This document shows positions 44,722 to 59,991 of a stretch of DNA of 64,000 nucleotides, in pieces. The DNA comes from Rhodospirillales bacterium (GTDB lineage Bacteria > Pseudomonadota > Alphaproteobacteria > ATCC43930 > CGMCC-115725), in the NCBI GenBank assembly GCA_947473305.1, contig CANJCB010000002.1, forward strand, positions 62,001 through 126,000. The letters run 5' to 3'. The first letter of the stretch is position 1, and each line of letters begins with the position of its first letter. The notes under the pieces are model-generated. The model had not been told where the DNA came from. It did not search any database and saw only the letters and a program-made list of their open reading frames with translations. The position numbers and the translations under genes are program-made.

Positions 44722-44735
44722 GCGAGCATATCAAG

Positions 44736-45734: not shown

Positions 45735-46900
45735 GCGTCGCCCCGGATAGCCGCGAGCTGCCCCACTACGCCTCGCCCGAGCCTTTCGACCCCTATAGCA
45801 TCGAGGCGATGACCCCGGCGCAGGAGCGCTTCTACCTCGCCTCCCAATGGCGCATGATGTGGTGGAAGCTGAAGCGCCATCGGATCGCGGTCATTTCCGG
45901 CGCCTTCCTCCTGGCGGCCTATGCCTCGATCCTCATCAGCGAATTCCTGGCGCCCTATGCGCTTGCCACCCGCCACACCGATTTCATCTATGCCCCGCCC
46001 CAGGGGATCCATCTCTTCCACGACGGCCATTTCGTCGGGCCTTTCGTCTATGGCTACGATTACCGCCTGGACATGGAGAACCTGCAGCGGGAATACACGC
46101 CGAATCCCACCAAGGTGGAGCCGCTGCGTTTCTTCTGCCATGGCGACCCCTACCATTACATGGGCCTGATCGAGGGCGACGTGCATCTCATCTGCCCCGC
46201 GGCGGGCGGTCATTTCTTCTTCTTCGGCACCGACCGGCTGGGGCGCGACATGCTCTCGCGCATCCTCTATGGGGCGCGTATTTCGCTCACCGTGGGCCTC
46301 ATCGGCATCAGCATCAGCTTCGCCATCGGCCTCACCCTAGGCGGCATCGCCGGCTATTACGGCGGGATCGCCGACACCCTCGTCCAGCGCCTGATCGAGG
46401 TGATCCGCTCCTTCCCGGAATTGCCGCTCTGGATGGCGCTTTCCGCGGTCCTGCCGGTAAGCTGGAGCCCATTGCTGATCTATTTCGGGATCACGCTCAT
46501 CCTGGGCATGCTCGACTGGACGGGCCTCGCCCGCGCGGTGCGATCGAAGCTGCTGGCGCTCCGCGAAGAGGATTTCTGCGTCGCCGCGCGGCTTATGGGG
46601 GCAAGCTCCAGCCGGGTCATCGGCCGGCATCTGCTGCCGAGCTTCATGAGCCATCTCATCGCCTCGGCGACTTTGTCGGTCCCTTCGATGATCCTGGGCG
46701 AGACGGCGCTGTCCTTCCTGGGCCTGGGTCTCCGCCCGCCGATCACCAGCTGGGGCGTGCTCTTGAACGAGGCGCAGAACATCAACGTGGTGGCGCTCTA
46801 CCCCTGGCTCATGCTGCCGGTGGTGCCGGTGATCCTGATCGTGCTCGCCTTCAACTTCTTCGGCGATGGGCTCCGCGACGCGGCCGATCCCTATCGGTAA
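45731..46900 (+). CDS. Peptide ABC transporter permease, second subunit (YejE/DppC-like)
   Basis: A 389-residue membrane protein. The N-terminal DppC-type segment is SQWRMMWWKLKRHRIAVIS, then a hydrophobic stretch (TM1). A large periplasmic loop of about 120 residues (residues about 80-170, with RFFCHGDPYHYMG) precedes HFFFFGTDRLGRDMLSRILYGARIS. The EAA loop is CVAARLMGASSSRVIGRHLLPSFM. A long loop of this kind is also seen in YejE, so it is not odd here. It completes the five-gene set from 40437 to 46900. A hairpin that can terminate in both directions follows. Confidence 0.93.
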   Translation: MSVAPDSRELPHYASPEPFDPYSIEAMTPAQERFYLASQWRMMWWKLKRHRIAVISGAFLLAAYASILISEFLAPYALATRHTDFIYAPPQGIHLFHDGHFVGPFVYGYDYRLDMENLQREYTPNPTKVEPLRFFCHGDPYHYMGLIEGDVHLICPAAGGHFFFFGTDRLGRDMLSRILYGARISLTVGLIGISISFAIGLTLGGIAGYYGGIADTLVQRLIEVIRSFPELPLWMALSAVLPVSWSPLLIYFGITLILGMLDWTGLARAVRSKLLALREEDFCVAARLMGASSSRVIGRHLLPSFMSHLIASATLSVPSMILGETALSFLGLGLRPPITSWGVLLNEAQNINVVALYPWLMLPVVPVILIVLAFNFFGDGLRDAADPYR

Positions 46901-46913
46901 ACCCGCAAATGAA

Positions 46914-46944
46914 AAGGGCGGAAAGCACTACGCCTTCCGCCCTT
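46914..46944. terminator. Bidirectional hairpin between convergent genes
   Basis: A perfect 10-base stem (AAGGGCGGAA at 46914-46923, TTCCGCCCTT at 46935-46944) with an 11-base loop. On the minus strand it is followed by TTCATTT, so it best serves the MBL gene. It probably also ends the permease transcript. Confidence 0.65.
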
Positions 46945-46964
46945 AAATTCCCCAACCGATATCG

Positions 46965-47801
46965 TCAGATGTGAAGCTGCATCCCCTCGTGGGCGACGAT
47001 GGTGCCCGGGCGCATTTCCGCGGCCTCGTCGGCGATCCGATCCATGAAGGCGTCGTCATGGGCGGGATCGTGGTGGAAGACCGCCAGCGTCTTCACATGG
47101 GCCGCCTCGGCAAGCCGGCAGCCTTCCTGCCAGGTCGAATGCCCCCAGGTCGCGAACTTCGGATATTCCTCGTCCGTATAGGTGCAGTCGTAGACCATGA
47201 GGTCGGCATGGTCGATCAGCGCCAGCACATTGGGATCGAACTCGCCCTGGCGATGCTCGGTGTCGGTGATATAGGCGATCACCTTGCCGCCGTATTCCAG
47301 CCGATAGCCGGTCGCGCCATTGGGATGGTTCAAGCCCCGCGTATGAAGCGTAATGTCCGGGCGCGGATGCAGCGTCTCGCCGCATTTGAAGTTGTGGAAT
47401 TCGATCGAGGCGCGGAAGACCTCCATGGGCACCGGGAAGAGCGGCGCCATCATCATGTCGCCGAGGACCTCTTCGATCCGATGCTCGGGCAGAAGATGGC
47501 CCGCCCACATCCGGACCTTGCAGCCGGGAATGAAAAGCGGCGCGAAGAAAGGAATCCCCAGCACGTGGTCGAAGTGGGTATGGCTGAAGAAGAGGTCGGT
47601 ATCGAGCGTCGCCCCCTTCGCCGCCAGCGTCTTCCCAAGCGGCCTCAAGCCTGTGCCCGCATCGAAGATCAAGAGGTGTTCGCCGCAGCGCACCTCGATG
47701 CAGGAGGTATTGCCGCCATAACGCACGGTCTCCGAACCTGGGCAGGCGATGCTGCCGCGGACCCCCCAGAAACGGACCGAAATTGCCCCCGCTTGCGACA
47801 A
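46965..47801 (-). CDS. Metallo-beta-lactamase-fold hydrolase
   Basis: A 278-residue protein with the MBL fold. The HxHxDH motif lies in FFSHTHFDHVLGIPFF and a His in LNHPNGATGY. The ITDTEH segment (bridging Asp) and LAVFHHDPAHDD carry the later ligands. The N terminus VRFWGVRGSIACPG resembles phosphodiesterase-type members (PhnP/RNase Z relatives), which hydrolyse cyclic or diester phosphates. The substrate is unknown. It lies downstream of the response regulator gene on the same strand, 103 bases apart, and may be part of its locus. Confidence 0.9.
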   Translation of the reverse strand: MSQAGAISVRFWGVRGSIACPGSETVRYGGNTSCIEVRCGEHLLIFDAGTGLRPLGKTLAAKGATLDTDLFFSHTHFDHVLGIPFFAPLFIPGCKVRMWAGHLLPEHRIEEVLGDMMMAPLFPVPMEVFRASIEFHNFKCGETLHPRPDITLHTRGLNHPNGATGYRLEYGGKVIAYITDTEHRQGEFDPNVLALIDHADLMVYDCTYTDEEYPKFATWGHSTWQEGCRLAEAAHVKTLAVFHHDPAHDDAFMDRIADEAAEMRPGTIVAHEGMQLHI

Positions 47802-47904
47802 AGCCGCACCCTCCCCTAAAGAACCCCCAGCCTTTCCATCCTACCCTTTCCGGATGGATTCGGGATCATAAAAAAACTATCTGCATTTTATACGCCGTCG
47901 GCCT

Positions 47905-48594
47905 TCACGGCACCAGCCGATAGCCGCCCGTCTCGGTCACCAGGATTTCCGCCTTGGCGGGGTCTCGCTCGATCTTCTGCCGGAGCCGGTAGACATGGGT
48001 TTCCAAGGTATGGGTCGTGACGCCCGCGTTGTAGCCCCAGACTTCGTTGAGCAGGGTTTCGCGTCCGATGACCTTGTCGCCGGCCCGATAAAGATATTTC
48101 AGGATGGCGGTCTCTTTCTCCGTCAGCCGCACTTTCTTGCGGCCGGTGCCGTCGGTCAGAAGCTTGGCGCTCGGCCGGAAACTATAGGGACCGATCAAGA
48201 AAACCGCGTCCTCGCTCTGCTCGTGCTGGCGGAGCTGCGCGCGCAGCCGGGCGAGCAGCACGTTCAGCCGGAACGGCTTGGTGATGTAATCGTTGGCCCC
48301 GCTGTCGAGGCCCAGGATGGCGTCGGCATCGGTGTCGGCGCCGGTCAGCATCAGGATCGGGGACCGCACACCCGCCCGGCGCATGAGCCGGCAGAGCTCC
48401 CGCCCGTCCATATCCGGCAGCCCCACATCGAGCAGGATCGCGTCGTAGTAATGCTGCTTGGCGAATTCGAAAGCCTCGTCGGCGGTTTCGGCCTCCGCCG
48501 GAGCGAATTCCTCATGGAGCTGAAGCTGCTCCGCCAGGGATCGCCGGAGCGCGGAATCATCGTCGACGATTAGGATCTTTCGGCCAGGATTCAT
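47905..48594 (-). CDS. OmpR/PhoB-family response regulator
   Basis: A 229-residue protein. The receiver domain (1-120) has KILIVDDDSALRR (acidic pocket), LLDVGLPDMDGREL (phosphoacceptor Asp in LLDVG), MLTGADTD and DYITKPFRL (conserved Lys). The C-terminal OmpR-type winged helix ends in THTLETHVYRLRQKIE. It binds DNA as a phosphorylation-controlled activator or repressor. No kinase gene is next to it, so it is orphaned locally. ATG 48594 is preceded by GGAGAG; ATG 48660 is less likely. Confidence 0.93.
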   Translation of the reverse strand: MNPGRKILIVDDDSALRRSLAEQLQLHEEFAPAEAETADEAFEFAKQHYYDAILLDVGLPDMDGRELCRLMRRAGVRSPILMLTGADTDADAILGLDSGANDYITKPFRLNVLLARLRAQLRQHEQSEDAVFLIGPYSFRPSAKLLTDGTGRKKVRLTEKETAILKYLYRAGDKVIGRETLLNEVWGYNAGVTTHTLETHVYRLRQKIERDPAKAEILVTETGGYRLVP

Positions 48595-48656
48595 GATCTC
48601 TCCAGGAGCGCGCCGGGCGGAATCATACCATGATGCGCGGGAATATTCTTGTCCGA

Positions 48657-49526
48657 TCAAGGGGTTTTGCGGGGCAGCGCCAGCAAATCGAGGTGGCCGA
48701 CGCTCATGGAGAGAAGGCCGCCCGAGAGCTGGGCCTGCCGCTCCGCCAGCCAGCGCGCGAAGAGACCCGCCGACCGCGGCTCGGCAGCCGTCGCAACGGC
48801 GGTTGCTTCCTCGAGAAGCGTCGCCAGCATGCGGCGGTGTTCCGGGCTGATCCGCCAGTCGCTTTTTACGGCCAAGGTCTCATGACCGAGGCCGTCGAGC
48901 CGATCCTTCAAATAGGCGGCGGCAGAAACGCCAAGCGCCGGGCCGAACCCTTTGTCGCCGCCCTGGTGACGCAGAAAGGCCGCCAGCACTGCCGCATCCT
49001 CCGGCAAGGGAGGATGCCAATCCCGCCGCCCGTCGACGCTCAAGGTCGCCAGCAACGGCAGGCGGCGGTCGGCCAGGCAGGCGGCCAGCCGGTCGAGCCA
49101 GGGGGCGGAGACCAGATCCAGGAAGGCCGTGGTCGTCACGCCCGTGAAACTCGCGAAATCGAGGCGCTCCAGATCGCGCGACAGATCGAGCCGCTTGGCC
49201 TTGGCGCACCAGCGGGCCGAGCCGGTTTCGACCACGACGCCCTCGGCCTCGCTGGAACAATGCCAGCCTTCGCGCTTCGCCCAACGCGCGATTTCGCCGG
49301 CCTGAGCGGTCAGCAGCATGGGATCCTGGTCCACCAGCACCCAGTCCTGATCGCCGCCGATGATCGGCGCCAGGGCGCGGAAATTGGCGCCATGCCCCGC
49401 CGCGAGATCGATCACGCGAGCGGTCTTTCCGAGCGCTGCGGCGAAACGCACAGCCAGTTCCCCATCCCGCGCCGCGAGATCGAAAGGCGCCCGGCGGCTG
49501 AGCCATTCATCGGAAAAGTCGGTCAT
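48657..49526 (-). CDS. Class I SAM-dependent methyltransferase (last gene of seven-gene operon)
   Basis: 289 residues from ATG 49526, which overlaps the glycosyltransferase stop (ATGA). The SAM pocket is RVIDLAAGHGANFRAL near residues 38-53, followed by WVLVDQDPML (acidic residue after strand 2). The rest is helical, with FTGVTTTAFLDLVSAPWLDRL in the middle. I know relatives only as unnamed methyltransferases of glycosyltransferase/PTPS loci. Methylation of the same product handled by the other genes is inferred. It ends the tight gene run before the response regulator. Confidence 0.78.
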   Translation of the reverse strand: MTDFSDEWLSRRAPFDLAARDGELAVRFAAALGKTARVIDLAAGHGANFRALAPIIGGDQDWVLVDQDPMLLTAQAGEIARWAKREGWHCSSEAEGVVVETGSARWCAKAKRLDLSRDLERLDFASFTGVTTTAFLDLVSAPWLDRLAACLADRRLPLLATLSVDGRRDWHPPLPEDAAVLAAFLRHQGGDKGFGPALGVSAAAYLKDRLDGLGHETLAVKSDWRISPEHRRMLATLLEEATAVATAAEPRSAGLFARWLAERQAQLSGGLLSMSVGHLDLLALPRKTP

Positions 49527-50578
49527 GCCGCGAGCCGATCGAAAGCCGATGCCCAAAGGCGCGTCGCCTCGGCCCAGTCGGGCAAAGCCGCCCCCGCCCG
49601 CCGCGCGCCTTCGGCGAGACGGTCCCGAAGACCGGGATCTTCGAGGAGATGGGAGAGGGCCGCCGCGAGAGCTTCGGTGTCTCCCGGCGGCACGAGCAGC
49701 CCGGCGTCGGCCGGAACCGTGTCCGGTATGGCGCCGGCCGTGGTCGCGACGATCGGCAGTCCATGCGCCAAGGCTTCCGCATAGGCCATGCCGTACCCTT
49801 CATGATAGGACGGGAGCACGAAAAGATCCGCCTGCCGATAGGCTTGCGAGAGGCCTTCCGGGGGACGTTCGCCCAGAAGCTCCACCCGATCCCCGAGCCC
49901 GTGGCGAGCGATGGCCGCGCGCAACGCCGCCGCCGTCTCGGGATGACGGTCGAGGCTGCCGATGCAGGTCAGCCGCCAGTCCCCTGCCTTTACCCGCGAC
50001 AAAGCCTCGATCAGCAGGAGATGGCCTTTGCGCGGTGTCACCGTGCCGACGGCAAGCATGTGCAAGGGGCCTCCCCCCCGCTTGCGCGCCGAAGCGGCCG
50101 GCGGCTTCTCCGTCCCCGGAGGGACCACGGCGACCTGGGAAGCCGGCACTCCGTAGGACGCCACCGCCTCGGCCGTGCGGCGGCTGGGGCAGAGAATGCC
50201 GCGCAGAAGCGGCATCAGCCTGGTTTCGACTTCGGCGAAATGGCGGCTCTCCGTAACCGTAAGACCGGTTTCCAGCGCCAGGGGATGATGGATGAAGCCG
50301 ACGAGGCGCAAGCGCTCGGCTTCCTTCGCCAGACAATCCGCGAAGGCCGGCAAAGCCAAGCCGTCGATCACCGCGGCGCTCCGGTCGGGCAAGCCCCGCA
50401 AGGCGGCGGTCGCCGCGCCGCCCGCCGCCGCGTCGGCATCGGGATAGCGACCGGCCAATTCCAGGACCTCGACCTGCCGGCCCGAGGCGCGGAGACCCTC
50501 GACGATCCGGCGGTCGAAAAGATAGCCTCCGGTCAGCTGGTCGATCGGGCCGGGCACCAGAAAGGCGAGATCCCTCAC
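49523..50578 (-). CDS. GT4-family glycosyltransferase of the PTPS-like operon
   Basis: A 351-residue GT-B protein starting with GTG 50578, which overlaps the PTPS-like stop (GTGA). The N-terminal domain (residues 1-170) has FLVPGPIDQLTGGYLFDRRI. The donor domain carries AVGTVTPRKGHLLLIEAL and ADLFVLPSYHEGYGMAYAEALAHGLPIVAT, with the EGYGMAYAEAL retaining GT4 signature, and a final helix ends in SAFDRL. It probably adds a sugar to the product of the PTPS-like/reductase pathway; the acceptor and sugar are unknown. The start is tight with both neighbours. Confidence 0.87.
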   Translation of the reverse strand: MRDLAFLVPGPIDQLTGGYLFDRRIVEGLRASGRQVEVLELAGRYPDADAAAGGAATAALRGLPDRSAAVIDGLALPAFADCLAKEAERLRLVGFIHHPLALETGLTVTESRHFAEVETRLMPLLRGILCPSRRTAEAVASYGVPASQVAVVPPGTEKPPAASARKRGGGPLHMLAVGTVTPRKGHLLLIEALSRVKAGDWRLTCIGSLDRHPETAAALRAAIARHGLGDRVELLGERPPEGLSQAYRQADLFVLPSYHEGYGMAYAEALAHGLPIVATTAGAIPDTVPADAGLLVPPGDTEALAAALSHLLEDPGLRDRLAEGARRAGAALPDWAEATRLWASAFDRLAA

Positions 50579-50979
50579 CCCAGCGAGTCCTCGAAGCTCG
50601 CCCAGGCCACCGGCGATTCATGGAGCACGATCTTCATCGAGACGAGGCCCTCGGCCGTCCCCGGCCCGACGGCGCCGGCTTTGACGCGGGTCTTCAGCCG
50701 GCGGAAAATCTCGCCGGCCATGAATTCGGTGGTCGTGTTCCGCCCGCGGAATTCCGGCAGTTCGTCGAGGTTCTTGAAGTTGAGTTCCGCCAGAACCTGC
50801 TTGAGGGTCTCCGAGGCAAGGCCGATATCGCAGACAAGGCCGTTTCCATCGAGTTCCGGCCGGCGGAATTCGACCACCACTCCATAGGTCGCGCCGTGCA
50901 TCTGCTGGGCCGGGCCGAAGATTTCTCCGACGAAGCTATGGGCGATCATGATGTGATCCGAAACGGCGAGGCTGTACAT
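50575..50979 (-). CDS. 6-pyruvoyl-tetrahydropterin synthase/QueD-like protein with altered active site
   Basis: A 134-residue T-fold protein. PTPS-type elements are visible: His14 (IAHSFVGE), His28-Gly29-Ala30 (MHGATYGVVVEF), the CDIG segment (50-53), NTTTEFMA (81-88) and the final Glu121 (LHESPVAW). Canonical PTPS/QueD has HGH (zinc ligands), a catalytic Cys just before it and a Asp-His-His segment. Here the second His of HGH is Ala30, no Cys precedes it, and the Asp-His-His region reads LNFKNLDEL. The fold is clear but canonical chemistry may be lost or changed. It lies between the MDR dehydrogenase and GT4 genes in a seven-gene run. Confidence 0.82.
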   Translation of the reverse strand: MYSLAVSDHIMIAHSFVGEIFGPAQQMHGATYGVVVEFRRPELDGNGLVCDIGLASETLKQVLAELNFKNLDELPEFRGRNTTTEFMAGEIFRRLKTRVKAGAVGPGTAEGLVSMKIVLHESPVAWASFEDSLG

Positions 50980-50999
50980 CGGTCGAAGACTCCCTGAAT

Positions 51000-51968
51000 T
51001 CAGTATTTCACGACATGGCAGAGCGCGCCGTCGGGCGTGGAGGCAAGCCGGGCCATGGTCGCCGGCAGATCCTCGAAGCGGCTTTCGCCGGTCAGCAGCG
51101 CATCGAAGAGCGGATCGGCGAGAAGGTCCAGCGCCAAGGTCAGCCGCCGCCGGTAGCTCCACCTGGCCCGCTGAGCCGTCGCGACCGACCCCACCTGGGA
51201 CGACCGGAGCGTCAGGCGGCGCGAATGGAAGGCTTCGCCCAGCGGCGCCGCGACCATCTTGTCGCCATACCAGCTCATTTCCAGGACCGTCGCCTCGAAG
51301 CCGGCGATGCGCAGCGCCGTCGAAAGCCCGGCCGGGTTGCCGCTCGCATGGATGACCAGATCCGCATCGGAGCGCGCCGCCTCGGGTCCCGCGAAACGGC
51401 AGCCCAGGCGGGCGGCAAGGGCTGACCGGCGCGCATCGGCATCGATCAATTCAACCTCGGTGCCGGGAATCCGGGCGGCCAGCGCGGCCAGGAGGCAGCC
51501 CACCACGCCGGCGCCCACCACCGCGATCCGGTCGCCGAGCCTCGGACCCGCGTCCCAGAGGCCGTTCACCGCCGTCTCCATATTGGCGGCGAGAACCGCG
51601 CGCTCGGTGGAAACCGCCTCCGGCACCGGGACGACGCTGTCGGTCGGCACGGCATAGCGATCCTGATGCGGATAAAGGCAGAAGACACGGCGGCCCCGCA
51701 CCTCGGGCGGGCCTTCCTCGACGAGGCCGACCGAGGAATAGCCGTATTTGACCGGCCCCGGAAACTCGCCTTCCTGAAAGGGGCAGCGCATGACCTGGCG
51801 CTGGCTTTCCGGAACCAATCCCTGGAAGACGAGGCTTTCCGTTCCCCGGCTGATCCCGCTCGCCAGCGTCCGGACGATGACGCCATCGACAGCCTTTGCG
51901 GGCAACGCGCCGGACCGGATCTCTCCCCGCCCGGGCTCCGCGACCCAGAAACTCCGACAGTCAGTCAT
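51000..51968 (-). CDS. Medium-chain dehydrogenase-like protein lacking the catalytic zinc Cys
   Basis: A 322-residue MDR-type (zinc alcohol dehydrogenase-like) protein. The N-terminal domain has [18 protein letters not shown], in which Ser40 stands where the catalytic zinc Cys normally is. The NAD(P) fold has [18 protein letters not shown] in the middle, followed by an acidic ELIDADARR at the end of strand 2 (NAD preference suggested). The SRGTE segment recurs in a branch that includes BchC-like dehydrogenases. The substrate is unknown. ATG 51968 overlaps the RibD-like stop by 8 bases, and the PTPS-like start follows 20 bases after its stop. Confidence 0.8.
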
Positions 51969-52725
51969 GGAAGATGCATTCCACGAGAATGTCGTCGCCC
52001 AGCGGGAAGTGCCGGACACGGGGGCGCAGGCCTTCGCGGATATCCGTGATTTCCGGCAGGTCGATGCTTGGGCGGCCCGAGCCCAGGATGACCGGGGCTA
52101 TGGTGATTTGCAGCCGGTCGAGAGCGCCCACCTTGAGGAAGCGGGAGATCGTCACCCCGCCGCCCTCGATGAAAAGCCAATGGAGCCCGCGCCGCGCCAA
52201 CACATCGCGGATCGTGCGGGGATCGAGACCTTCGGGTCCTCTCGGAACAGGAACATATTCCGCGAGCCCGAGCGTTTCGCCGTCCTGGGCACGGCCTTCG
52301 CCGGTGACGATCAGGGTGCGCGCCGCGCCGTCGCGGAAGATGCCCTGGGTTCCATCGAGCCGCCGCTCGGGATCGATGACCACCCGCACGGGATTGGATC
52401 CCGGACAGCGGCGGACGGTGAGTTGCGGGTCGTCGCTCAAGACGGTCCCGACGCCGACCAGGATCGCATCGGCCAGCGCGCGCATCCGATGGGCGTGAAG
52501 CAGATCCGCCTCGCCGCTGAGCCATTGGGACGCGCCATTGACGGTGGCGATCCGGCCGTCGAGGCTTTGCGCCAGATGGGCGACCGCGAAAGGCCGGCCG
52601 CGCGGCACGGCGCAGAGCGGGCCATAGAGTTCGGCCAGGGGCGATCCCTCGCAGGGCGAAGGGCCGCCGCGCTCCCGCCAGGCCAGCAACGCCTCCCAGT
52701 CCGCTCCCTCTAACTCCCCCCTCAT
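51961..52725 (-). CDS. RibD C-terminal-type (pyrimidine/dihydrofolate) reductase domain protein
   Basis: A 254-residue protein with only the reductase domain of RibD (RibD_C, DHFR-like fold); the N-terminal deaminase domain is absent. Marks are [39 protein letters not shown] and [14 protein letters not shown]. The family uses NADPH to reduce the ribosyl group of aminouracil/pterin-like intermediates in riboflavin and related pathways. The genome's normal RibD should be elsewhere, so this copy is probably dedicated to the linked pathway. It starts 5 bases after the stop of the secreted protein gene and overlaps the next gene by 8. Confidence 0.85.
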
Positions 52726-52730
52726 CCCCC

Positions 52731-53654
52731 TTATTTCCCGGAAAAATCGCGGAAGATGAGATCGGGAGCGGTCAGGTTGTGGTGGGATTGGAGGCTGCGG
52801 CCGAAGCGCACCTCCTCGGTCCGGGCGCCGGGAAAGCCGAGGATAGGCAGCACCCGTTTCGCGAAGCCGTCCTGCCAGGCGACTTCGGTCATATCCGCCT
52901 GATCGGTGGTGACGAACATGGAGCGCAAGGCCGCGAAGGGCCCCGGCCCGACGGGCGGCCCGAGCTGGACCTTAAGCGAGACGTAGTCGGGCCGGATGTC
53001 GGCAACCCGCAGGAGCGCCGCCCCGCCGCGCGCGAAATCGAGGCGGAAGGCCATGGCGGAAGGATCGAAGGCGATGGATTTCAGCGCCACGAAGGGCCGC
53101 GACGATTCCTCGATCGGCCCGATCAGGAAGGAGCTGCCATAGGCGCTGTCCTGGAGATGCGGCGGCGGCATGGGCTTCAGCCGCCAATAGCCATCCCCCG
53201 GATAGAGCACCAGGAATTCGATCTCCCCGCCCATGCCCCCGGTCCAATGCTTCAGGAAAAGCTGGACGAGGTGAAGGCCCCGCTCGTTGCGGTCCTCGAC
53301 CCGGAAATCGACCACATCGGGCCGCCAATTGGTCTTGAAGGTGTGGCCCACCAACCTAATGCGGGCATCCTCGTAGAGCGTCACGGTGCGGGGCTCGAAG
53401 GGGAAACTCGGATCCTGCGACATGTCGCAATGGGTGAAGTCGGGATCCTTGCTCTCTGTCGTGACCGCCTGGATGTAAGGCGGCAATACCGCGCGGATCT
53501 CGAAGAAGGAGACATCCTGCCCGAGGAACTTCACATAGACATTGTCCTCCTCGGCGCAGCGGGTCGGCTTCGTCGCATTGACCACCTCGACGGGCGCCGC
53601 GATCGCGGGCAGAGCCGCGAGGCCGAGGAACAGGGCGAGAGCGGCTGCCCTCAT
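52731..53654 (-). CDS. Secreted protein of unknown function encoded next to the OpgH-like enzyme
   Basis: A 307-residue protein with a signal peptide (MRAAALALFLGLAALPAIAA). The mature body has two early Cys (C33 in PTRCAEED and C76 in FTHCDMS) that could form a disulfide, and many beta-strand-like stretches (YIQAVTTESKDPDF, GEIEFLVLYPGDGYWRLKP). I recognise no family. It overlaps the OpgH-like gene by 4 bases (ATGA). OpgH normally works with the periplasmic OpgG, a protein of about 500 residues; this one is unrelated in length and is a possible functional substitute, which is inference. Confidence 0.72.
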   Translation of the reverse strand: MRAAALALFLGLAALPAIAAPVEVVNATKPTRCAEEDNVYVKFLGQDVSFFEIRAVLPPYIQAVTTESKDPDFTHCDMSQDPSFPFEPRTVTLYEDARIRLVGHTFKTNWRPDVVDFRVEDRNERGLHLVQLFLKHWTGGMGGEIEFLVLYPGDGYWRLKPMPPPHLQDSAYGSSFLIGPIEESSRPFVALKSIAFDPSAMAFRLDFARGGAALLRVADIRPDYVSLKVQLGPPVGPGPFAALRSMFVTTDQADMTEVAWQDGFAKRVLPILGFPGARTEEVRFGRSLQSHHNLTAPDLIFRDFSGK

Positions 53655-55426
53655 TCGGCGAAACCCGCCGCCGGCAGCGCGAAGGGCGAGACCTCGTCCA
53701 GCTCCTCGGTCGTGGCGCGGGCCGGCGTCTCCTCCGGGATCCGGCAGAGACCCACAGCCATGAGCGCGCGCCCGACCAGCGGATGGGCGGTCAGCATGGC
53801 GAGGGGGATTGCCCCCAGAAGCCCGCCGAGAAAGGGCGAGGCGATCCAGAGCGCGCCCGGCGCCATGACCACGAACCAGGCGGTGAGCGCCGCGCCGAAA
53901 AGCGTCTGAGGCCAGAATTTCTGCATCGCCATGGAGAAGGGAACGCTTTGCGCATCGCGGCGCTGGGCGTTCCAGCCGACGGTGCGGCCGAAGGGGAGCC
54001 CCAGGATCATCAGCGACACCGCAACCGCGCTGATCGGCGAGAGCAGCATCGAGAAGGCCGTCTCCAGCAGGGCTCCGGCGACGATCCGGGGGGCGCCGCC
54101 GAAGGCCCGGCGCAGATCCCGGCGCAGCAGCACGTCGATGAGCGTCGCGATCTTCGGCGCGAAGACCATGACCATGGAGAGGAAGAACAGGATGATGCCG
54201 AGGTCCGCCCGGTACGGCGCATCCCGCACCATGCCCAGCAGGATGAAGCCGAGCCAGGCCGGCGACCCCAGGTACATGGCGATGGCGAGGCCGAGCTGGC
54301 AGCGGCTCACCGGCTTCAGCTTGGGGGTGCCCAGGAACTTCCAATACTGCATGTTGCCCTGGCACCAGCGCAGGTCGCGCCGGATGAATTCGGGCATGGT
54401 CGGCGGGTTCTCTTCCCAGCTGCCATCCTCGTCCGGAAGGACGCGGACCTGATAGCCCGCGCGGCGCATCAGCACCGCTTCGAGCTGATCGTGGCTCAGC
54501 ACATGGCCGCCCAAAGGCGGCTTGCCCGGTAGTACCGGCAGATGGCAATGATCGGTGAAGGGCTTCAGGCGCAGGATCGCGTTATGGCCCCAATAGGGTC
54601 CGCAATCCCCCTGCCAGCTCGCGGATCCCAGGGTATAGGACCGCATGCCGAGCCGCATGCCGAACTGGAAGATCCGGGCAAAGGGGCTGGCGCTGGGCAG
54701 GCCGGTGACCAGGGTCTGGAGAATGCCGATCTGCGGTTCCCGCTGCATGACCCGCACGAGGCGCAGCATCGCCTTGGGCGTCATCACGCTGTCGGCGTCG
54801 AAGACGATCCCGAAGTCGTGGCGATCGGCCCAGCGTTCCAGGAAATCGCGGATATTGCCGGCCTTGAAGCCGACGCTCTCGCTGCGCCGCCGATAGGTGA
54901 CCGCGAGGCTCTTACCGCAACGCTCCTCGAGGGAAGCCGCGACGGCCTCCTCCTCGGCGAAGACTTCCGGCTTGTTGCTGTCGCTCAGAATATAGAGATG
55001 GAAGCCGCCCGCCTGACCCGTCGCAACCAGGCCATCGAGCATCCAGGTCAGATTGCGGGAGAGCCGCCGGGTATCCTCGTTGCGCACGCAGATCATCAAG
55101 GCCGTGCGGCTTGTGATAGGCTCGTCGCCCGTGAGGCGGCGCAGGAAGGGCGAGACGAAGCCTTCGGGGTCCTTGACGAAACTCATGAGCGCCAGGCCGA
55201 TGAGCGCGTTCCAGAAGCCGATCGCGACCCAGGGCAGCGTGATCGCGAAGCAGACGATCATCAAAAGCCCGACGAGATCGACGCCTCCCGGGAAAAGCGT
55301 CGCCGCCATGAGCCCGATGAGACCCGCGCATGTGCCGAGGACCAGAGCCGCAAATCCCGCCCGACGCCAGATCAGCCCCTTGCCGGCGTCAAGTGACGCC
55401 CCCATTTCCTGCAACGCATCCTCCAT
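53651..55426 (-). CDS. opgH: OpgH/MdoH-like membrane glucosyltransferase (GT2)
   Basis: A 591-residue inner-membrane protein. Two N-terminal helices (about 22-43 and 50-72) precede a GT2 catalytic domain with TALMICVRNEDTRRLSRNL, FDADSVMTPKAMLRLVRVM (DxD-like) and EAVLMRRAGYQVRVLPDEDGSWEENPPTM. RRDLRWCQGNMQY is the catalytic QxxRW-like motif. Four or more C-terminal helices follow. OpgH makes osmoregulated periplasmic glucan backbones from UDP-glucose. ATG 55426 is far from ribA (285 bases), so this gene heads the minus-strand operon. It is shorter than E. coli OpgH (about 850 residues), as are other alphaproteobacterial homologues. Confidence 0.88.
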   Translation of the reverse strand: MEDALQEMGASLDAGKGLIWRRAGFAALVLGTCAGLIGLMAATLFPGGVDLVGLLMIVCFAITLPWVAIGFWNALIGLALMSFVKDPEGFVSPFLRRLTGDEPITSRTALMICVRNEDTRRLSRNLTWMLDGLVATGQAGGFHLYILSDSNKPEVFAEEEAVAASLEERCGKSLAVTYRRRSESVGFKAGNIRDFLERWADRHDFGIVFDADSVMTPKAMLRLVRVMQREPQIGILQTLVTGLPSASPFARIFQFGMRLGMRSYTLGSASWQGDCGPYWGHNAILRLKPFTDHCHLPVLPGKPPLGGHVLSHDQLEAVLMRRAGYQVRVLPDEDGSWEENPPTMPEFIRRDLRWCQGNMQYWKFLGTPKLKPVSRCQLGLAIAMYLGSPAWLGFILLGMVRDAPYRADLGIILFFLSMVMVFAPKIATLIDVLLRRDLRRAFGGAPRIVAGALLETAFSMLLSPISAVAVSLMILGLPFGRTVGWNAQRRDAQSVPFSMAMQKFWPQTLFGAALTAWFVVMAPGALWIASPFLGGLLGAIPLAMLTAHPLVGRALMAVGLCRIPEETPARATTEELDEVSPFALPAAGFAE

Positions 55427-55711
55427 CGAACCTTGCTGCCTGATCTTCGTCTCCCGGGCAAACCTGAAGCCGCCGATCTCAATTCGCTCGTCATAACGAC
55501 TGAGAGCCTCCTTCTATGCCATGACGCGGCGATGCGTCGCGCGCAAAACTGCGGAGTTCAAGCCGACTATGGGGAAGGGAGTTGTCACATTTCCGCGAGG
55601 GTGGGCCGATTTGTCGCCTTCCACTGCGTTTCTGCTGACGTTGTAAAAGAGCCGATATATGATCGCGCCTCTTCGCGGGGCGGGTAGGGCCTTAAAAACC
55701 CACGGAATATC

Positions 55712-56884
55712 TTGGCACCCAAACGAGTTATTAAGACCGAAGTCCAGGTGGAGCCCACTTTGCTGAACCGCAAACTCGTCCCCGCGCCATCCGCCGCCGC
55801 GGCCCTGCTTTACAAGGTTGACCACGCCATTGCCGATCTGCGGCGGGGCGGGAAGGTCCTGCTGTGGCATGAGGGCGCTAGCTTCGTGGTGCAGGCCGCA
55901 GAGGCCCTGACCCCGGAAAGCGTCGACTGGCTGCGCGAGGCCACGGGCGGGCGCGTGGCCCTGGTTCTGACGCGGCGGCGCGCCGCCGCCCTCGGTCTTG
56001 TGCCGCAGCCTCAGGGACCGGGCGGCACCGTCGCCCTTTCCGTGCCGGATCCCTGCGACGCGGCCCTGCTTCAGCATATGGCCGATCCGACCGCCGAGAC
56101 CGCCGAAACCCTTCCGCTCGCCGCGTCGGCTTTGCCGCCGAGCGCCGCCGATGCGGCGGTCGAGCTGACCAAGCTCGCCCGTCTCTTGCCGGCCGTGCTC
56201 ATGGGACCCGTCGGCCAGAAAGCCGCCGATCTCGCCGCCGAAGGGGTATTGGATGTCGATGCGAGCCTCGTCGCCGATTACCAGGCAACTGCGGCCCGCT
56301 CCCTCCGCCGCGTCAGCGAAGCCAATGTCCCCCTGGCGGATGCGGAAAATACCAAGATCGTCGCTTTCCGGCCGACCGATGGCGGCATCGAGCATCTGGC
56401 CATCGTGATCGGCGATCCCGATCCGGCCCAGCCGATCCTGATCCGGCTCCATTCCGAATGCTTCACGGGCGACCTCCTCGGCAGCCTGCGCTGCGATTGC
56501 GGGGACCAGCTGCGCGGCGCGATCGCCGAAATCGCGCGCGCCGGCAGCGGTGTCCTGCTCTATCTGGCGCAGGAAGGACGGGGTATCGGGCTCGTCAATA
56601 AGCTCCGGGCCTACCGGCTCCAGGATGCGGGTTTCGACACGGTCGACGCCAACGAGCAGCTGGGCTTCGATGCGGATGAGCGGGTCTATCTGCCGGCCGC
56701 CGAGATGCTGTTTCAGATGGGATTTCCACGGGTGAGGCTGCTCACCAACAATCCCGAGAAGGTGGCGGCCCTGACCCGCTGCGGCATCAATGTCGTCGAG
56801 CGCGTGCCGCACGTCTTCCCCGCCAACGGTCACAACGACCGCTATCTTCGGACCAAGGCGACCCGCAGCGGCCACTTCCTCTAG
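55712..56884 (+). CDS. ribA: GTP cyclohydrolase II with degenerate N-terminal domain (RibA-like)
   Basis: A 390-residue protein. The C-terminal half is GTP cyclohydrolase II: HSECFTGDLLGSLRCDCGDQL holds the zinc ligands C250, C261 and C263, and LAQEGRGIGL and RLLTNNPEKV follow. The N-terminal half looks like a shrunken DHBP synthase (AIADLRRGGKVLLWHEG), but the acidic EDREN-type catalytic motif is missing, so only the GTP reaction is expected. The start is TTG 55712 (GTG 55748 is an alternative). It is divergent from the OpgH-to-methyltransferase operon and may feed it, or simply make riboflavin. Confidence 0.88.
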   Translation: MAPKRVIKTEVQVEPTLLNRKLVPAPSAAAALLYKVDHAIADLRRGGKVLLWHEGASFVVQAAEALTPESVDWLREATGGRVALVLTRRRAAALGLVPQPQGPGGTVALSVPDPCDAALLQHMADPTAETAETLPLAASALPPSAADAAVELTKLARLLPAVLMGPVGQKAADLAAEGVLDVDASLVADYQATAARSLRRVSEANVPLADAENTKIVAFRPTDGGIEHLAIVIGDPDPAQPILIRLHSECFTGDLLGSLRCDCGDQLRGAIAEIARAGSGVLLYLAQEGRGIGLVNKLRAYRLQDAGFDTVDANEQLGFDADERVYLPAAEMLFQMGFPRVRLLTNNPEKVAALTRCGINVVERVPHVFPANGHNDRYLRTKATRSGHFL

Positions 56885-56965
56885 ATAGCCCATTCCTGCC
56901 GGGGGTTCCCGGCACATTCTTCCTCCCTTCTATCTCAAGTATCTGATTTATAAGGACTTTACCTC

Positions 56966-56981
56966 TGGCATCGGCCTTGCA
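56966..56981 (+). promoter_or_regulatory. Sigma-54 promoter upstream of the 312-residue protein
   Basis: TGGCAT-N5-TTGCA: the GG (56967-56968) and GC (56979-56980) are separated by exactly 10 bases, and TGGCA and TTGCA match the consensus fully. The start would be near 56992, giving a short leader that contains GGAGA (56996-57000) before ATG 57006. This is the better of the two sigma-54 matches in the window. Confidence 0.78.
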
Positions 56982-57005
56982 GAGCTGACGCCCGAGGAGA
57001 TTTTG

Positions 57006-57944
57006 ATGTCCGATGTTGCCGTCAGTTATCCAGCCGGAGCCAGCCCCTATCTCGATGGGCCAGCCGGCGCAGCACCGGGCAAATCGGTGCTCTGGAAAGG
57101 CGACAGCTTCAGCTTTCACGACCTTCTCGACGTCATAAATCCGATCCAGCACATCCCGGTCGTCGGCACCGTCTACCGCTGGCTCAGCGGCGATACGATC
57201 GGCAATGCGGCGCGGGTCATGGGCGACACGCTGTTCGGCGGCCCCATCGGGGCGGTGACCGGAATGATCGGCGCCCTTCTGAAGGAAGGCACCGGCAAGG
57301 ATGTCGGCGAACATGTGATCGCCATGTTCGACAGCCCACCCGCCACGGATGCCTCTGCCGCCTTGGTGGGCGACGACAGGAAGCGCGAAGGAGCGCGGCC
57401 CGCCATCCAGGTCGCCTATGAAAGCCCCGCGCTGGCCAAGACGGTCGCGGCCCTGAGCCCCGGCCTTCCGCTCAATCGGGGCACGCCGGCTTCAGCGGGC
57501 AACCTCACCCGCACCGACGCCGAGCAGGCCTTCGTCACTCAAAACGCAAAGCTCATGGGAGGACGGTCGGCAGCGAGCACGCCAATGAACCAGCTCCCGC
57601 CCCGGCCGATCATCAACACGCCGGTCCCCCTGCAGCTCACCGGCGCTCCCCTGCCCGAACGCAGGCCGCTCTTCAGTCCCGTCCAGCCCGCGCATGCCCA
57701 GGGGCAGACGCCGCCGGGGCAGGCTCAACCGGCGCTGAAAATGCCGAACCAGCCGGCCGCAGGCACATTCACGCCGGTGACGATCCCCGCTCCCGGCGAT
57801 CAGTCCGCGGCCGGCCAGATGAATCCCCCCATCGAAGTTTCCCAGAAGATGATGGAAGCGCTCGACCGCTATATGAGAATCCAGCAGGATCGCGACCGTA
57901 CGAAACCGACGGGCGCCGGCGCACAGCTCGACGTTCGGAGCTGA
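57006..57944 (+). CDS. Protein of unknown function with sigma-54 promoter, conserved N-terminal domain and Pro-rich tail
   Basis: A 312-residue protein from ATG 57006 (TTG 57003 is one codon earlier). Residues 20-110 look conserved (SFSFHDLLDVINPIQHIPVVG, GDTLFGGPIGAVTGMIGAL). This part has alternating hydrophobic and glycine-rich stretches, so a membrane association is possible. From about 180 the protein is rich in Pro, Gln and Ala and ends with a coiled-coil-like helix. I recall similar sequences in Rhodospirillales only as hypothetical proteins. Sigma-54 promoters in this class often serve flagellar genes, so an envelope or motility role is plausible but not shown. Confidence 0.7.
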   Translation: MSDVAVSYPAGASPYLDGPAGAAPGKSVLWKGDSFSFHDLLDVINPIQHIPVVGTVYRWLSGDTIGNAARVMGDTLFGGPIGAVTGMIGALLKEGTGKDVGEHVIAMFDSPPATDASAALVGDDRKREGARPAIQVAYESPALAKTVAALSPGLPLNRGTPASAGNLTRTDAEQAFVTQNAKLMGGRSAASTPMNQLPPRPIINTPVPLQLTGAPLPERRPLFSPVQPAHAQGQTPPGQAQPALKMPNQPAAGTFTPVTIPAPGDQSAAGQMNPPIEVSQKMMEALDRYMRIQQDRDRTKPTGAGAQLDVRS

Positions 57945-57977
57945 AGGAACAAGGCGTCGACCCTCGCCCCTGATAAT

Positions 57978-58496
57978 GTGGCCGGCAATCTGCCCGACAA
58001 TCTGGAAATCACCCCGGACGGCAAGGCGCTTTGGCGCGGCCGGATCTGGCGTTGCGCCCTCGGTCGAGGCGGCGTCCTGCAAGAGAAGCGCGAAGGGGAC
58101 GGCGCGACCCCCATCGGTTCCTGGGCGATGCGGCAGCTGCTCTATCGGGCGGATCGGCAACCACCCCCCTCCACGCGGCTGTCGCTCGCTCCGATCGGCC
58201 GGGACGATGGCTGGTGCGACGCGCCGGAAGATGAGCTCTACAACCGGCCCGTCACCTTGCCCTATAAGGCCAGCGCCGAGCATTTGTGGCGCGCGGACGA
58301 GGTCTATGACCTGATCGTGCCGCTGGGCTACAACGACCGGCTGCCAAAGGCCGATCTCGGCAGCGCGATCTTCCTCCATGTGGCGCGGCCGGATTACGCG
58401 CCCACGGCGGGCTGCGTGGCGCTGTCCCAGGCCGACCTTCTAACGCTGCTCGCCGAAGCCGATCCGCGGTCCCGCGTCGTCGTCAGAGGGCCGTGA
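57978..58496 (+). CDS. L,D-transpeptidase (YkuD) family protein
   Basis: A 172-residue protein with a single YkuD-like domain. IFLHVARPDYAPTAGCVALSQADL carries the catalytic His and Cys of the HxxxxxxxxxxGC(V/I) signature. GRGGVLQEKREGDGATPIGSWAM is the usual start of the fold. No signal peptide is visible from GTG 57978. The upstream frame up to the stop at 57942 adds only a few residues and no start. Family members cross-link peptidoglycan or attach proteins to it. It converges with yggS, overlapping by 14 bases. Confidence 0.85.
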   Translation: MAGNLPDNLEITPDGKALWRGRIWRCALGRGGVLQEKREGDGATPIGSWAMRQLLYRADRQPPPSTRLSLAPIGRDDGWCDAPEDELYNRPVTLPYKASAEHLWRADEVYDLIVPLGYNDRLPKADLGSAIFLHVARPDYAPTAGCVALSQADLLTLLAEADPRSRVVVRGP

Positions 58497-59217
58497 CCGG
58501 CTCCTGGCGCGGAGGACGCGCCCCGAAGATCGCGGTGCCGATCCGGACATGGGTCGCGCCAAGCCGGATCGCGACCTCGAAATCGGCGCTCATCCCCATG
58601 CTGAGAATCGGCAAACCCTGACGCCGGGCGATTTCGCGCAGCAGGGCAAAATAGGGGGAGGGCTCCTCGCCCGCCGGAGGAACGCACATGAGGCCGGTCA
58701 CCGGAAGCGCCAAGCGACCGCGACAATCCTCGATGAAGGCGTCGGCATCGGCGGGCAAAATGCCCGCCTTCTGGGGCTCCTCGCCGATATTCACCTCGAC
58801 CAGAAGCTCCGGGCAGCGGCCGCTCCGCTCCCTTTCCCGGACCAGGGCCTCGGCGAGCTTCGGGCGGTCGAGGCTTTCGATGACATCGAAGAGGGCGACG
58901 GCCTCCTTGACCTTGTTGGTCTGGAGCGGCCCGATGAGATGCAGGCGGAGATCGGGATGCCGGCTTTTAAGGTCGGGATATTTTCCCTGCGCCTCCTGGA
59001 CCCGGTTCTCGCCGAAAAGGCGCTGGCCGGCGAGAAGAGCCGCTTCGACGGCATCGGCAGGATGGGTCTTGCTCACCGCGACCAGCGCCACGGCGCCCGC
59101 TGGACGGTTGGCCTTGGCGGCCGCCTCAAGGATTCGCTGCCGGATGAGCGCGAGATTTTGCGCGACGGCGACGCCGCTCGGCAGGGGAGGCTCAGATTGG
59201 GTGTCGGCTGATGACAT
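58483..59217 (-). CDS. yggS: YggS-family PLP-binding protein (PLPHP)
   Basis: A 244-residue protein of the alanine-racemase-like PLP homeostasis family (YggS/PROSC). ALVAVSKTHPADAVEAAL (PLP-binding Lys in SKTH), LFGENRVQEAQGKYPDL, HLIGPLQTNKVKEAV and the end motif LSMGMSADFEVAIRLGATHVRIGTAIFG are the family hallmarks. It keeps cellular PLP and amino-acid balance and has no known enzyme activity. ATG 59217 is chosen over TTG 59226. In alphaproteobacteria the gene often neighbours the DUF3576/leuS group, as here, although on the other strand. Confidence 0.93.
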   Translation of the reverse strand: MSSADTQSEPPLPSGVAVAQNLALIRQRILEAAAKANRPAGAVALVAVSKTHPADAVEAALLAGQRLFGENRVQEAQGKYPDLKSRHPDLRLHLIGPLQTNKVKEAVALFDVIESLDRPKLAEALVRERERSGRCPELLVEVNIGEEPQKAGILPADADAFIEDCRGRLALPVTGLMCVPPAGEEPSPYFALLREIARRQGLPILSMGMSADFEVAIRLGATHVRIGTAIFGARPPRQEPVTAL

Positions 59218-59357
59218 TCTTCGCAACCATCGCGGAGGCTCGATTCCGCGTCAAGATGGCCCCGCACGGCCTGAATTTTTAGCACAATTCCCGGCCCTGC
59301 CGGTGTAGGATGCGCCGCCCGCCGGTTTGGCCTCCGGCGTTCAAGGAGTTTGTGTTG

Positions 59358-59951
59358 ATGTCCATGAGATCCGTCGGCTTCGCCATTGCCGCCGCAAGCC
59401 TGCTCGCCGGTTGCAGTTCCTTCGACTGGTTCACGAAGTCGAGCGAGCCTGTCGACACCGCCACGATCCGGCGTTCGGCAGACCCCTACGGCACGGACGG
59501 CAGGTACAGCGATCCCAGGAACTACAACCCCCTTATCGAAGGCGATCCGAACGGTCCGGGCGCCCAGGGCCTCATGAGCATGCTGCTGAGCCCGAAAAAG
59601 GACGAGGGCGGCGGTGGCGCGGGTATCGGCGTCAACAGTTTCCTCTGGCGCGCAACCTTGGATACGGTTTCCTTCATGCCGCTCGCCTCGGCGGATCCCT
59701 TCGGCGGCGTCATCATCTCCGACTGGTACAGCCCTGCCGAGACCCCGAACGAACGCTTCAAGGTCAATGTCTTCATTCTCGGCCGCGAGCTTCGCGCCGA
59801 CGGCGTGCGTTGCAGCGTCTTCCGGCAACGCAAGGACGCCAACGGCGGGTGGATCGATGCCTCCGTTGACGGCAATACCGGCACCGACATCGAAAACGCT
59901 ATCCTGACCCGCGCCCGGCAAATCCGCATCGCCACCGCGCAGACCAAGTAG
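59358..59951 (+). CDS. DUF3576-family lipoprotein
   Basis: A 197-residue lipoprotein. The signal sequence ends in the lipobox LLAGCSS (Cys19 lipidated). After a spacer, [32 protein letters not shown] and [17 protein letters not shown] belong to DUF3576. AAGGAG lies 9 bases before ATG 59358. The family is widespread in alphaproteobacteria and is regularly encoded just upstream of leuS, with 40 bases between them here. Envelope function is not known. Residues with acidic/Gly repeats ([10 protein letters not shown]) lie before the domain. Confidence 0.92.
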
Positions 59952-59991
59952 CCTCTCCGTCTCATATCTAATCGGGAGCAGCGTCCGCGCG

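Follow-up and report, generated by a model that had tools for sequence, protein, structure and literature searches.

A conserved gene cluster around a PTPS-IV protein in a Rhodospirillales bacterium, with a candidate branch pathway from GTP to the cell envelope

Introduction

A 64,000-nucleotide stretch from a Rhodospirillales bacterium (assembly GCA_947473305.1, contig CANJCB010000002.1, positions 62,001 to 126,000), hereafter the window, carries seven closely packed genes on its minus strand between positions 55426 and 48657, with a divergent ribA alongside. Five of these genes, encoding a reductase with only a RibD_C domain, a medium-chain dehydrogenase (MDR), a PTPS-IV protein, a GT4 glycosyltransferase and a methyltransferase, are the core of a cluster that recurs in distant genomes and on plasmids. 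We found that the genes of this cluster form one evolutionary unit, and that two recurrent envelope modules stand beside its core: a CDP-alcohol phosphatidyltransferase (CDP-OH-P) with a flippase-like protein, or the glucosyltransferase OpgH. We consider it about an even chance (probability near 0.5) that the operon encodes one branch pathway off GTP with a product that is handed to the envelope. On our best reading, from the families of the encoded proteins, the product would be a GTP-derived, glycosylated and methylated compound, possibly placed in the envelope.

Part of this neighborhood is already in print. The sections available to us of the 2017 AGeNNT paper describe a PTPS-IV neighborhood (cluster-node 62) with PF00925 and PF01872, comprising 561 sequences and given no function; it has the FGPAQ signature and both Pfam families in common with the window. 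In those sections PF00925 is taken as FolE2-type, and the MDR, GT4, methyltransferase, CDP-OH-P and OpgH partners and the product are not named (PMC5445326). Our literature search, confined to open-licence papers, returned no product or function for the cluster and nothing on the whole gene set. A first-pass annotation of the window, made from its sequence, had called the combination of genes new to any described pathway; this stands as far as a product is concerned, although the PTPS/RibA/RibD_C neighborhood had been published.

Organization of the operon

The layout was established from the open reading frame (ORF) listing, start sites and family searches. The operon begins with an OpgH/MdoH-like glucosyltransferase (53651..55426, 591 residues), followed by a secreted protein (52731..53654, 307 residues), the RibD_C-only reductase (51961..52725, 254 residues), the MDR (51000..51968, 322 residues), the PTPS-IV protein (50575..50979, 134 residues), the GT4 glycosyltransferase (49523..50578, 351 residues, GTG start) and the methyltransferase (48657..49526, 289 residues), for which an ATG start at 49526 is more likely than TTG at 49556. 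Adjacent genes overlap by 4 bases (OpgH/secreted, PTPS/GT4 and GT4/methyltransferase) or 8 bases (RibD_C/MDR), or are separated by 5 (secreted/RibD_C) or 20 bases (MDR/PTPS). On the plus strand, ribA (55712..56884, 390 residues) encodes a GTP cyclohydrolase II; its start was read as TTG at 55712, which places it 285 bases from the start of opgH, and the intergenic region (55427..55711) is presumed to hold the promoters of both units. All of the genes described in the first-pass annotation were present, and the overlaps and gaps it gave were right to within about a base.

Conservation of the gene set

The linkage of the core genes was measured in a phylum-wide sample of 299 genomes, with cut-offs of E<=1e-15 for the PTPS protein and E<=1e-40 for the MDR. 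The PTPS-like gene was found in 22 genomes and the MDR gene in the identical 22, adjacent in every case with gaps of fewer than 130 bases. If the two genes were independent, the two sets would coincide by chance with a probability of about 1e-33, a figure that kinship among the genomes makes too small. Because the pair occupies the same 22 of 299 genomes and is always adjacent, its linkage exceeds chance, and a chance neighborhood was ruled out. Seventeen of 61 relatives of the window genome carry the PTPS gene at E<=1e-40; the MDR reached the same threshold in 16 of these, the contig of the seventeenth stopping inside the MDR gene, and in none of the other 44. Two weaker PTPS matches among the relatives (1e-4 and 1e-5) were taken for other PTPS proteins.

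Gene families around the pair were counted by homology and conservation-based gene calling in two sets of loci. The first comprises the PTPS/MDR genomes of the phylum sample other than the window genome (21 loci, surroundings of up to 19 kb, families counted within about 9 kb). GT4 was present in 20 of these loci, RibD_C in 19, the methyltransferase in 19 and GTP cyclohydrolase II in 10; further genes encoded OpgH (9), CDP-OH-P (9), the LPG-synthase transmembrane protein (LPG-TM; 9), cytochrome b561 (6), an FkbM methyltransferase (6), creatininase (4) and YceI (4). The second set joins the best 80 of 381 PTPS hits in genome contigs to eight plasmid loci, and is biased to near relatives. In these 88 loci the core was nearly constant (MDR 87, PTPS 87, GT4 84, methyltransferase 83, RibD_C 81); PTPS went unmatched only in a haloarchaeal locus (L110), where the protein has diverged beyond the reach of the search. 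Partners included CDP-OH-P (56), LPG-TM (48), RibA (45), creatininase (38) and OpgH (35), and more rarely FkbM (21), OpgG (20), cytochrome b561 (18), the secreted OpgG-like protein (15), YceI (15) and a sulfatase-like protein (14). Conserved linkage, on which the first-pass annotation had staked its proposal, was thus borne out, with PTPS and MDR confined to the same 22 genomes and GT4, RibD_C and the methyltransferase usually present.

Two alternative envelope modules

The OpgH protein belongs to the MdoH family, exceeding the cut-offs of NF003958 (537 bits against 419) and NF003962 (479 against 328); the best-scoring MdoH model, NF003963 (706 bits), stayed below its own cut-off of 884. The operon copy is the one OpgH match in the window genome. 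Its neighbor, described in the first-pass annotation as a secreted protein, has an N-terminus that looks like a signal peptide by eye, and can be specified further as a divergent OpgG/OpgD-like fold. No Pfam or NCBIfam family matched it, PF04349 (MdoG) included, and Foldseek returned no row under E 0.001. An AlphaFold model built from 17 sequences (mean pLDDT 85.4) was aligned by VIA-align to E. coli OpgG 1txk (Z 14.2, 214 residues, rmsd 3.0, 13% identity) and to OpgD 8ip1 (Z 13.7), the next row having a Z of 6.6; the alignment to OpgD stops at residue 370, short of the general acid D388. Because of this fold, opgH and the secreted gene of the window look like a periplasmic-glucan pair, seemingly a reduced version of opgGH. 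The pair resembles the opgGH system of periplasmic glucan synthesis in its OpgH and in the OpgG-like fold, but differs in that the OpgG-like protein is short and unmatched by sequence.

The first-pass annotation counted opgH as part of the set; it turned out to lie outside the core, as one of two alternative modules. Eight of ten loci from the same family have CDP-OH-P and RibA beside the core, with RibD_C-MDR-PTPS-GT4 complete within the stretch in seven of the eight; the remaining two are a locus with neither and a short contig, and OpgH was found in none of the ten. In four loci from the same order (f2) the operon ends in OpgH and FkbM and CDP-OH-P is absent; the secreted protein is present in one of the four. 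Across the 21-locus set, the place next to the MDR is taken by OpgH in seven loci and by CDP-OH-P in nine, never by both; two further OpgH genes, with an opgG as neighbor, are located at the far edge. LPG-TM is present in all nine CDP-OH-P loci and in no other, cytochrome b561 in six of the seven MDR-adjacent OpgH loci and in no other, and YceI in four of the nine CDP-OH-P loci and in no other. Among 76 loci with at least 6 kb on both sides (one of them a duplicate, L033 and L128 having contigs of equal length and being taken as one), 19 have OpgH only, 38 CDP-OH-P only, 12 both and 7 neither. The OpgH of Halomonas and Vreelandella lies 6.3 to 7.2 kb away on the opposite strand, beside opgG, and an OpgH tree built with no outside MdoH references places the in-operon copies apart from the Halomonas copies, which is as much as it shows.

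A trio of OpgH, FkbM and a short OpgG-like protein was observed beside the core in three loci (L142 10690-13500, L153 10952-13800 and L138 2001-5500). The window genome was also searched for a cluster-type CDP-OH-P protein away from the operon, and the candidates were rejected, as none of its three PF01066 proteins is close (at most 27 bits). It encodes two LPG-TM proteins, both away from the operon; one of these (PF03706) is in the window at 4750-5634 on the plus strand, about 43 kb off. Glucans of E. coli take substituents from membrane phospholipids, according to the portion consulted of one account (PMC3818809), and by analogy such phospholipid-derived substituents could be one way in which the two modules are equivalent.

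Predicted functions of the core enzymes and of RibA

The PTPS protein (PF01242, E 2e-19) carries the FGPAQ signature, as do 85 of the 88 PTPS ORFs, the window included. The exceptions read FGPAR (L071 and L097) or FGSAQ (L111), and the haloarchaeal L110 and L124 also lack the signature. FGPAQ is given as the mark of PTPS-IV in the consulted part of the AGeNNT paper (PMC5445326), and the window protein is therefore placed in this subfamily of COG0720. Its sole match in the PDB at E<=0.01 was Streptomyces coelicolor SCO6650 (3d7j, 143 bits). A profile of 26 PTPS-IV members was aligned to entries of QueD, in which we take Cys27 to be the nucleophile and three histidines, His33 among them, to bind zinc. 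The His of 'aaH' and the first His of HGH are kept; Ala24 stands at the nucleophile site, Ala30 at the second His of HGH, and an Asn and an aromatic residue where QueD has Asp-His. The aligned QueD entries also carry alanine at the nucleophile site, presumably as engineered variants. FGPAQxxHGATY stands in place of the CxxxHGH motif of QueD and PTPS-I (MHGATY in the window), and the window protein has alanine at both the Cys27 and His33 sites. Since the catalytic residues are lost, the protein lacks the means for known PTPS or QueD chemistry. The C-terminal-side glutamate E121, which we take to be the ring-anchoring residue, is invariant in 26 of 26 rows, and because it is kept, PTPS-IV should bind a pterin- or guanine-like ring. 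The protein also has the published PTPS/RibA/RibD_C neighborhood, a PF00925-type RibA being close by in only about half of the loci.

The reductase matches PF01872 (E 4e-39) and has no deaminase domain, so it is not a bifunctional RibD. Its nearest solved relative is 6p8c (106 bits, against 72 for bifunctional RibD), named 2,5-diamino-6-ribosylamino-4(3H)-pyrimidinone 5'-phosphate reductase, followed by 2azn, named putative 5-amino-6-(5-phosphoribosylamino)uracil reductase; it fell below the NCBIfam cut-offs of TIGR00227 and TIGR01508 (116 bits against 186 for the latter). From its lack of a deaminase and its kinship to 6p8c we infer that this step retains the 2-amino group. The operon thus shares a RibD_C-only reductase with the early riboflavin pathway of archaea and fungi, in which reduction precedes deamination, but differs in having PTPS, MDR, GT4 and methyltransferase genes in place of the downstream riboflavin enzymes.

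Window RibA (PF00925, E 5e-59) scores 208 bits to GTP cyclohydrolase II 2bz0, has the zinc cysteine motif HSECFTGDLLGSLRCDCG and the Tyr of KLRAY expected of such an enzyme, and carries a degenerate DHBP-synthase-like half at its N-terminus. Only two PF00925 proteins were found in the genome. The other is a RibBA-like protein on contig C9 (L140 3403-4527), within a row of ribD (full-length), ribE, the ribBA-like gene and ribH; its cyclohydrolase half lacks the zinc cysteines, reading HSVNVLDDVLGSTTGGQ where window RibA has HSECFTGDLLGSLRCDCG, and it was therefore ruled out as a second working enzyme. Judging from these residues, the genome probably has no catalytically intact GTP cyclohydrolase II besides window RibA, which would then have to feed riboflavin as well. 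The RibD_C protein should not be needed for riboflavin, since full-length ribD, ribE and ribH are on C9. The divergent ribA, which the first-pass annotation had offered as pathway evidence, is present but carries less weight than it appears to, because it is probably the sole intact copy; it keeps some weight, as some plasmid clusters have a cyclohydrolase of their own.

Position for position, the residue at the RibA switch site is Tyr in the window and Met in a Streptomyces plasmid enzyme (L104). Spoonamore and colleagues are said to have found in 2006 that SCO6655, a GTP cyclohydrolase II homologue of S. coelicolor, makes FAPy, and Met reportedly marks a stop at this formylated product. The window enzyme is not of this type, and its Tyr leads us to expect the ordinary product. 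The likeness to the Streptomyces system lies in the PTPS match to SCO6650; the Streptomyces plasmid cluster pairs a Met-type cyclohydrolase with creatininase, an enzyme not detected close to the operon of the window. A rule that creatininase goes with the Met-type enzyme was considered and fails, as Halomonas and Thauera clusters pair a Tyr-type RibA with creatininase.

The MDR matches the BchC model TIGR01202 weakly (43.5 bits against a cut-off of 291). The segments S40-R-G-T-E44 and Y75-G-Y77 are conserved at 97% or more in 107 sequences, and the usual zinc-ligand motifs are missing; assuming that these motifs are a fair guide, the enzyme is apparently zinc-less. The GT4 protein matches PF13692 and PF00534. 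The final protein has no Pfam match and is a class I S-adenosylmethionine-dependent methyltransferase by its Rossmann fold and glycine-rich motif I. The motif reads DLAAGxGAN in the window, and a 21-row alignment shows no variation at D40 or G44 and hardly any at G46; the model has a mean pLDDT of 91.5, its top VIA-align row has a Z of 18.7, and nearly all 50 rows are named methyltransferases.

Distribution on plasmids and among taxa

Thirteen of 24 plasmid records were examined. The core is annotated, entirely or for the most part, on plasmids of Streptomyces, Microbacterium, Thiodictyon, Methylosinus, Agrobacterium, Neorhizobium, Palleronia and Rhodobacteraceae SC52. Plasmids of Haloarcula and Halomicrococcus hold part of the cluster (L110 5379-9223 and L124 6897-10410); their PTPS is a different one, in which an HSH motif is retained. 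A GTP cyclohydrolase IIa and a CDP-alcohol phosphatidyltransferase are encoded in L110 as well. An Arthrobacter plasmid record is unannotated, and its MDR, PTPS and GT4 were detected by search. A GTP cyclohydrolase is listed in four of the 13 stretches, from Streptomyces, Agrobacterium, Palleronia and Haloarcula, where the IIa enzyme is beside the MDR. Two orphan PTPS-IV genes were seen on Streptomyces plasmids (L111 8001-8426 and L121 8001-8399) without the rest of the cluster; genes in their vicinity encode cupin and MBL-fold proteins, a sigma factor and a BTAD regulator.

In a tree built from MDR, PTPS and GT4, the window falls within its own family, at the base of or sister to a clade with mostly betaproteobacterial titles (support 0.996). 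Most loci of that clade share the set OpgH-secreted-RibD_C-MDR-PTPS-GT4-methyltransferase; in its Zoogloea loci and L042, OpgH is present and the secreted gene was not detected. Because the window nests with this clade, the tree suggests that the unit has moved between bacterial classes, the labels of metagenome-assembled genomes being doubtful. Six loci (L024, L029, L025, L036, L045 and L091) have betaproteobacterial- or Halomonas-like clusters under Verrucomicrobiaceae, Chitinophaga, Bordetella parapertussis or Natrialbaceae titles and are possibly mislabelled metagenome bins.

Flanking genes and signals

A response regulator gene (47905-48594) lies 62 bases past the methyltransferase, assuming its ATG start at 48594, and could be transcribed either with the operon or apart from it. 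Past ribA, a 313-residue ORF (57003-57944) had no match in Pfam or NCBIfam searches. No Rfam family, riboswitches included, was found in 44000-62000. Against expectations of 0.9 promoter-like and 5.6 terminator-like sites, consensus scans returned two of each and are uninformative either way; a weak sigma-70-like site in the intergenic region (plus strand, 55635-55663) is within chance expectation.

Proposed pathway and alternatives

The proposed route takes each reaction, the order of reactions, the product and the destination from family membership. RibA would open GTP to give 2,5-diamino-6-ribosylamino-pyrimidinone phosphate, and the RibD_C-only protein would reduce the ribosyl to a ribityl chain before any deamination, in the archaeal and fungal order. 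PTPS-IV and the apparently zinc-less MDR may then bind and reshape a 2-amino-4-oxo ring compound, to which GT4 would add a sugar and the class I methyltransferase a methyl group. Delivery to the envelope would involve OpgH and the OpgG-like protein in the lineage of the window, and CDP-OH-P with the flippase-like LPG-TM in many others; it is the way in which a lipid-headgroup module and a glucan module replace one another that points to this destination. The first-pass annotation had proposed a modified pterin- or pyrimidine-like product, glycosylated and methylated; the enzyme set does fit a GTP-derived compound, and that these enzymes work in a single pathway with such a product is what we infer.

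Several observations weigh against this proposal. GT4 is absent from one of the 21 loci and the methyltransferase from two, and the Rhodobacteraceae SC52 locus has no GT4. Cyclohydrolase II was not found near the cluster in 11 of the 21 loci, RibA was not found in 43 of the 88 (short contigs included), and cyclohydrolase II is unlisted in nine of the 13 plasmid stretches (two of them the orphan PTPS loci and one unannotated); the position of the divergent ribA may itself reflect riboflavin supply. As to the modules, 5 of the 21 loci have neither OpgH nor CDP-OH-P, and the 12 of 76 with both, within 9 kb, are all from Halomonas or Vreelandella. Phylogeny is a confounder of the alternation, most loci with OpgH being alpha- or betaproteobacterial, and for this reason we take it as a strong lead and no more.

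An envelope-glycan operon is an unlikely alternative that has to be taken seriously: OpgH and the OpgG-like protein would make a periplasmic glucan, GT4 and the methyltransferase would modify it, and RibD_C, MDR and PTPS would act on sugars or nucleotide sugars. MDR and GT4 enzymes are often sugar-acting, the secreted partner is OpgG-like, and OpgH accompanies the operon, inside it or next to it, in the window and in betaproteobacteria, the f2 loci, Methylosinus, Neorhizobium and 7 of the 21 evenly drawn genomes. It is missing, however, from the ten same-family loci and from those annotated stretches of haloarchaea and actinobacteria in which the core is wholly or partly preserved, and a sugar substrate agrees poorly with the invariant E121 of PTPS-IV and the recurrence of cyclohydrolases in the cluster. 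It is more unlikely still that ribA and the RibD_C gene boost or complete riboflavin supply with the remaining genes as mere neighbors. The lack of zinc cysteines in the C9 protein means that window RibA probably does feed riboflavin, but full ribD, ribE and ribH are on C9, RibD_C has no deaminase, neither ribE nor ribH is among the seven operon genes, and RibD_C accompanies the cluster in 81 of 88 PTPS-IV loci and in 19 of 21.

Ordinary queuosine (QueD) or tetrahydrobiopterin synthesis appears very improbable. Public annotation does call the plasmid homologues 6-carboxytetrahydropterin synthase, but the motif replacement and the two alanines described above speak against that activity, and products of queC, queE, queF and folE were not seen in 12 annotated plasmid stretches, the tables of which are incomplete. 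A role in coenzyme F420 synthesis can be given hardly any credence. That coenzyme starts from a RibA/RibD product, and an 817-residue ORF of the window genome (contig C6:132300-134345, L141) has a CofG domain with a strong match and a further, weak match to CofG, the pattern of a CofG/CofH fusion (F420 FO synthase). PTPS-IV is also said to take part in F420 synthesis, on unpublished work, in the part available of one report (PMC5041015). Yet CofG (E<=1e-60) occurs in 4 of the 299 genomes and is absent from 21 of the 22 with PTPS-IV, and three of the four CofG genomes lack PTPS-IV. The two coincide in the window genome only, and F420 is rejected as a general role in the phylum, archaea and actinobacteria being outside the sample. 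The F420 and queuosine pathways thus have a precursor or a fold in common with the operon, which differs in its lost QueD motif and in a CofG co-occurrence limited to one genome.

Returning to the branch pathway off GTP, its most far-reaching form is a ribityl-pterin or ribityl-pyrimidine glycoside fixed in the envelope, on a phospholipid headgroup in CDP-OH-P lineages or on a periplasmic glucan in lineages like that of the window; we regard this form as tentative and rather unlikely. Cytochrome b561 in OpgH-type copies and YceI in CDP-OH-P-type copies would fit a redox role at the membrane. The cluster supplies gene context for PTPS-IV, a subfamily with a solved structure and an unproven role, and its reach is wide, with the PTPS-MDR pair in 22 of 299 genomes of the phylum and the cluster also in actinobacteria, partly in haloarchaea, and on plasmids. 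If it exists, a ribityl glycoside fixed in the envelope would represent an envelope molecule of a new class.

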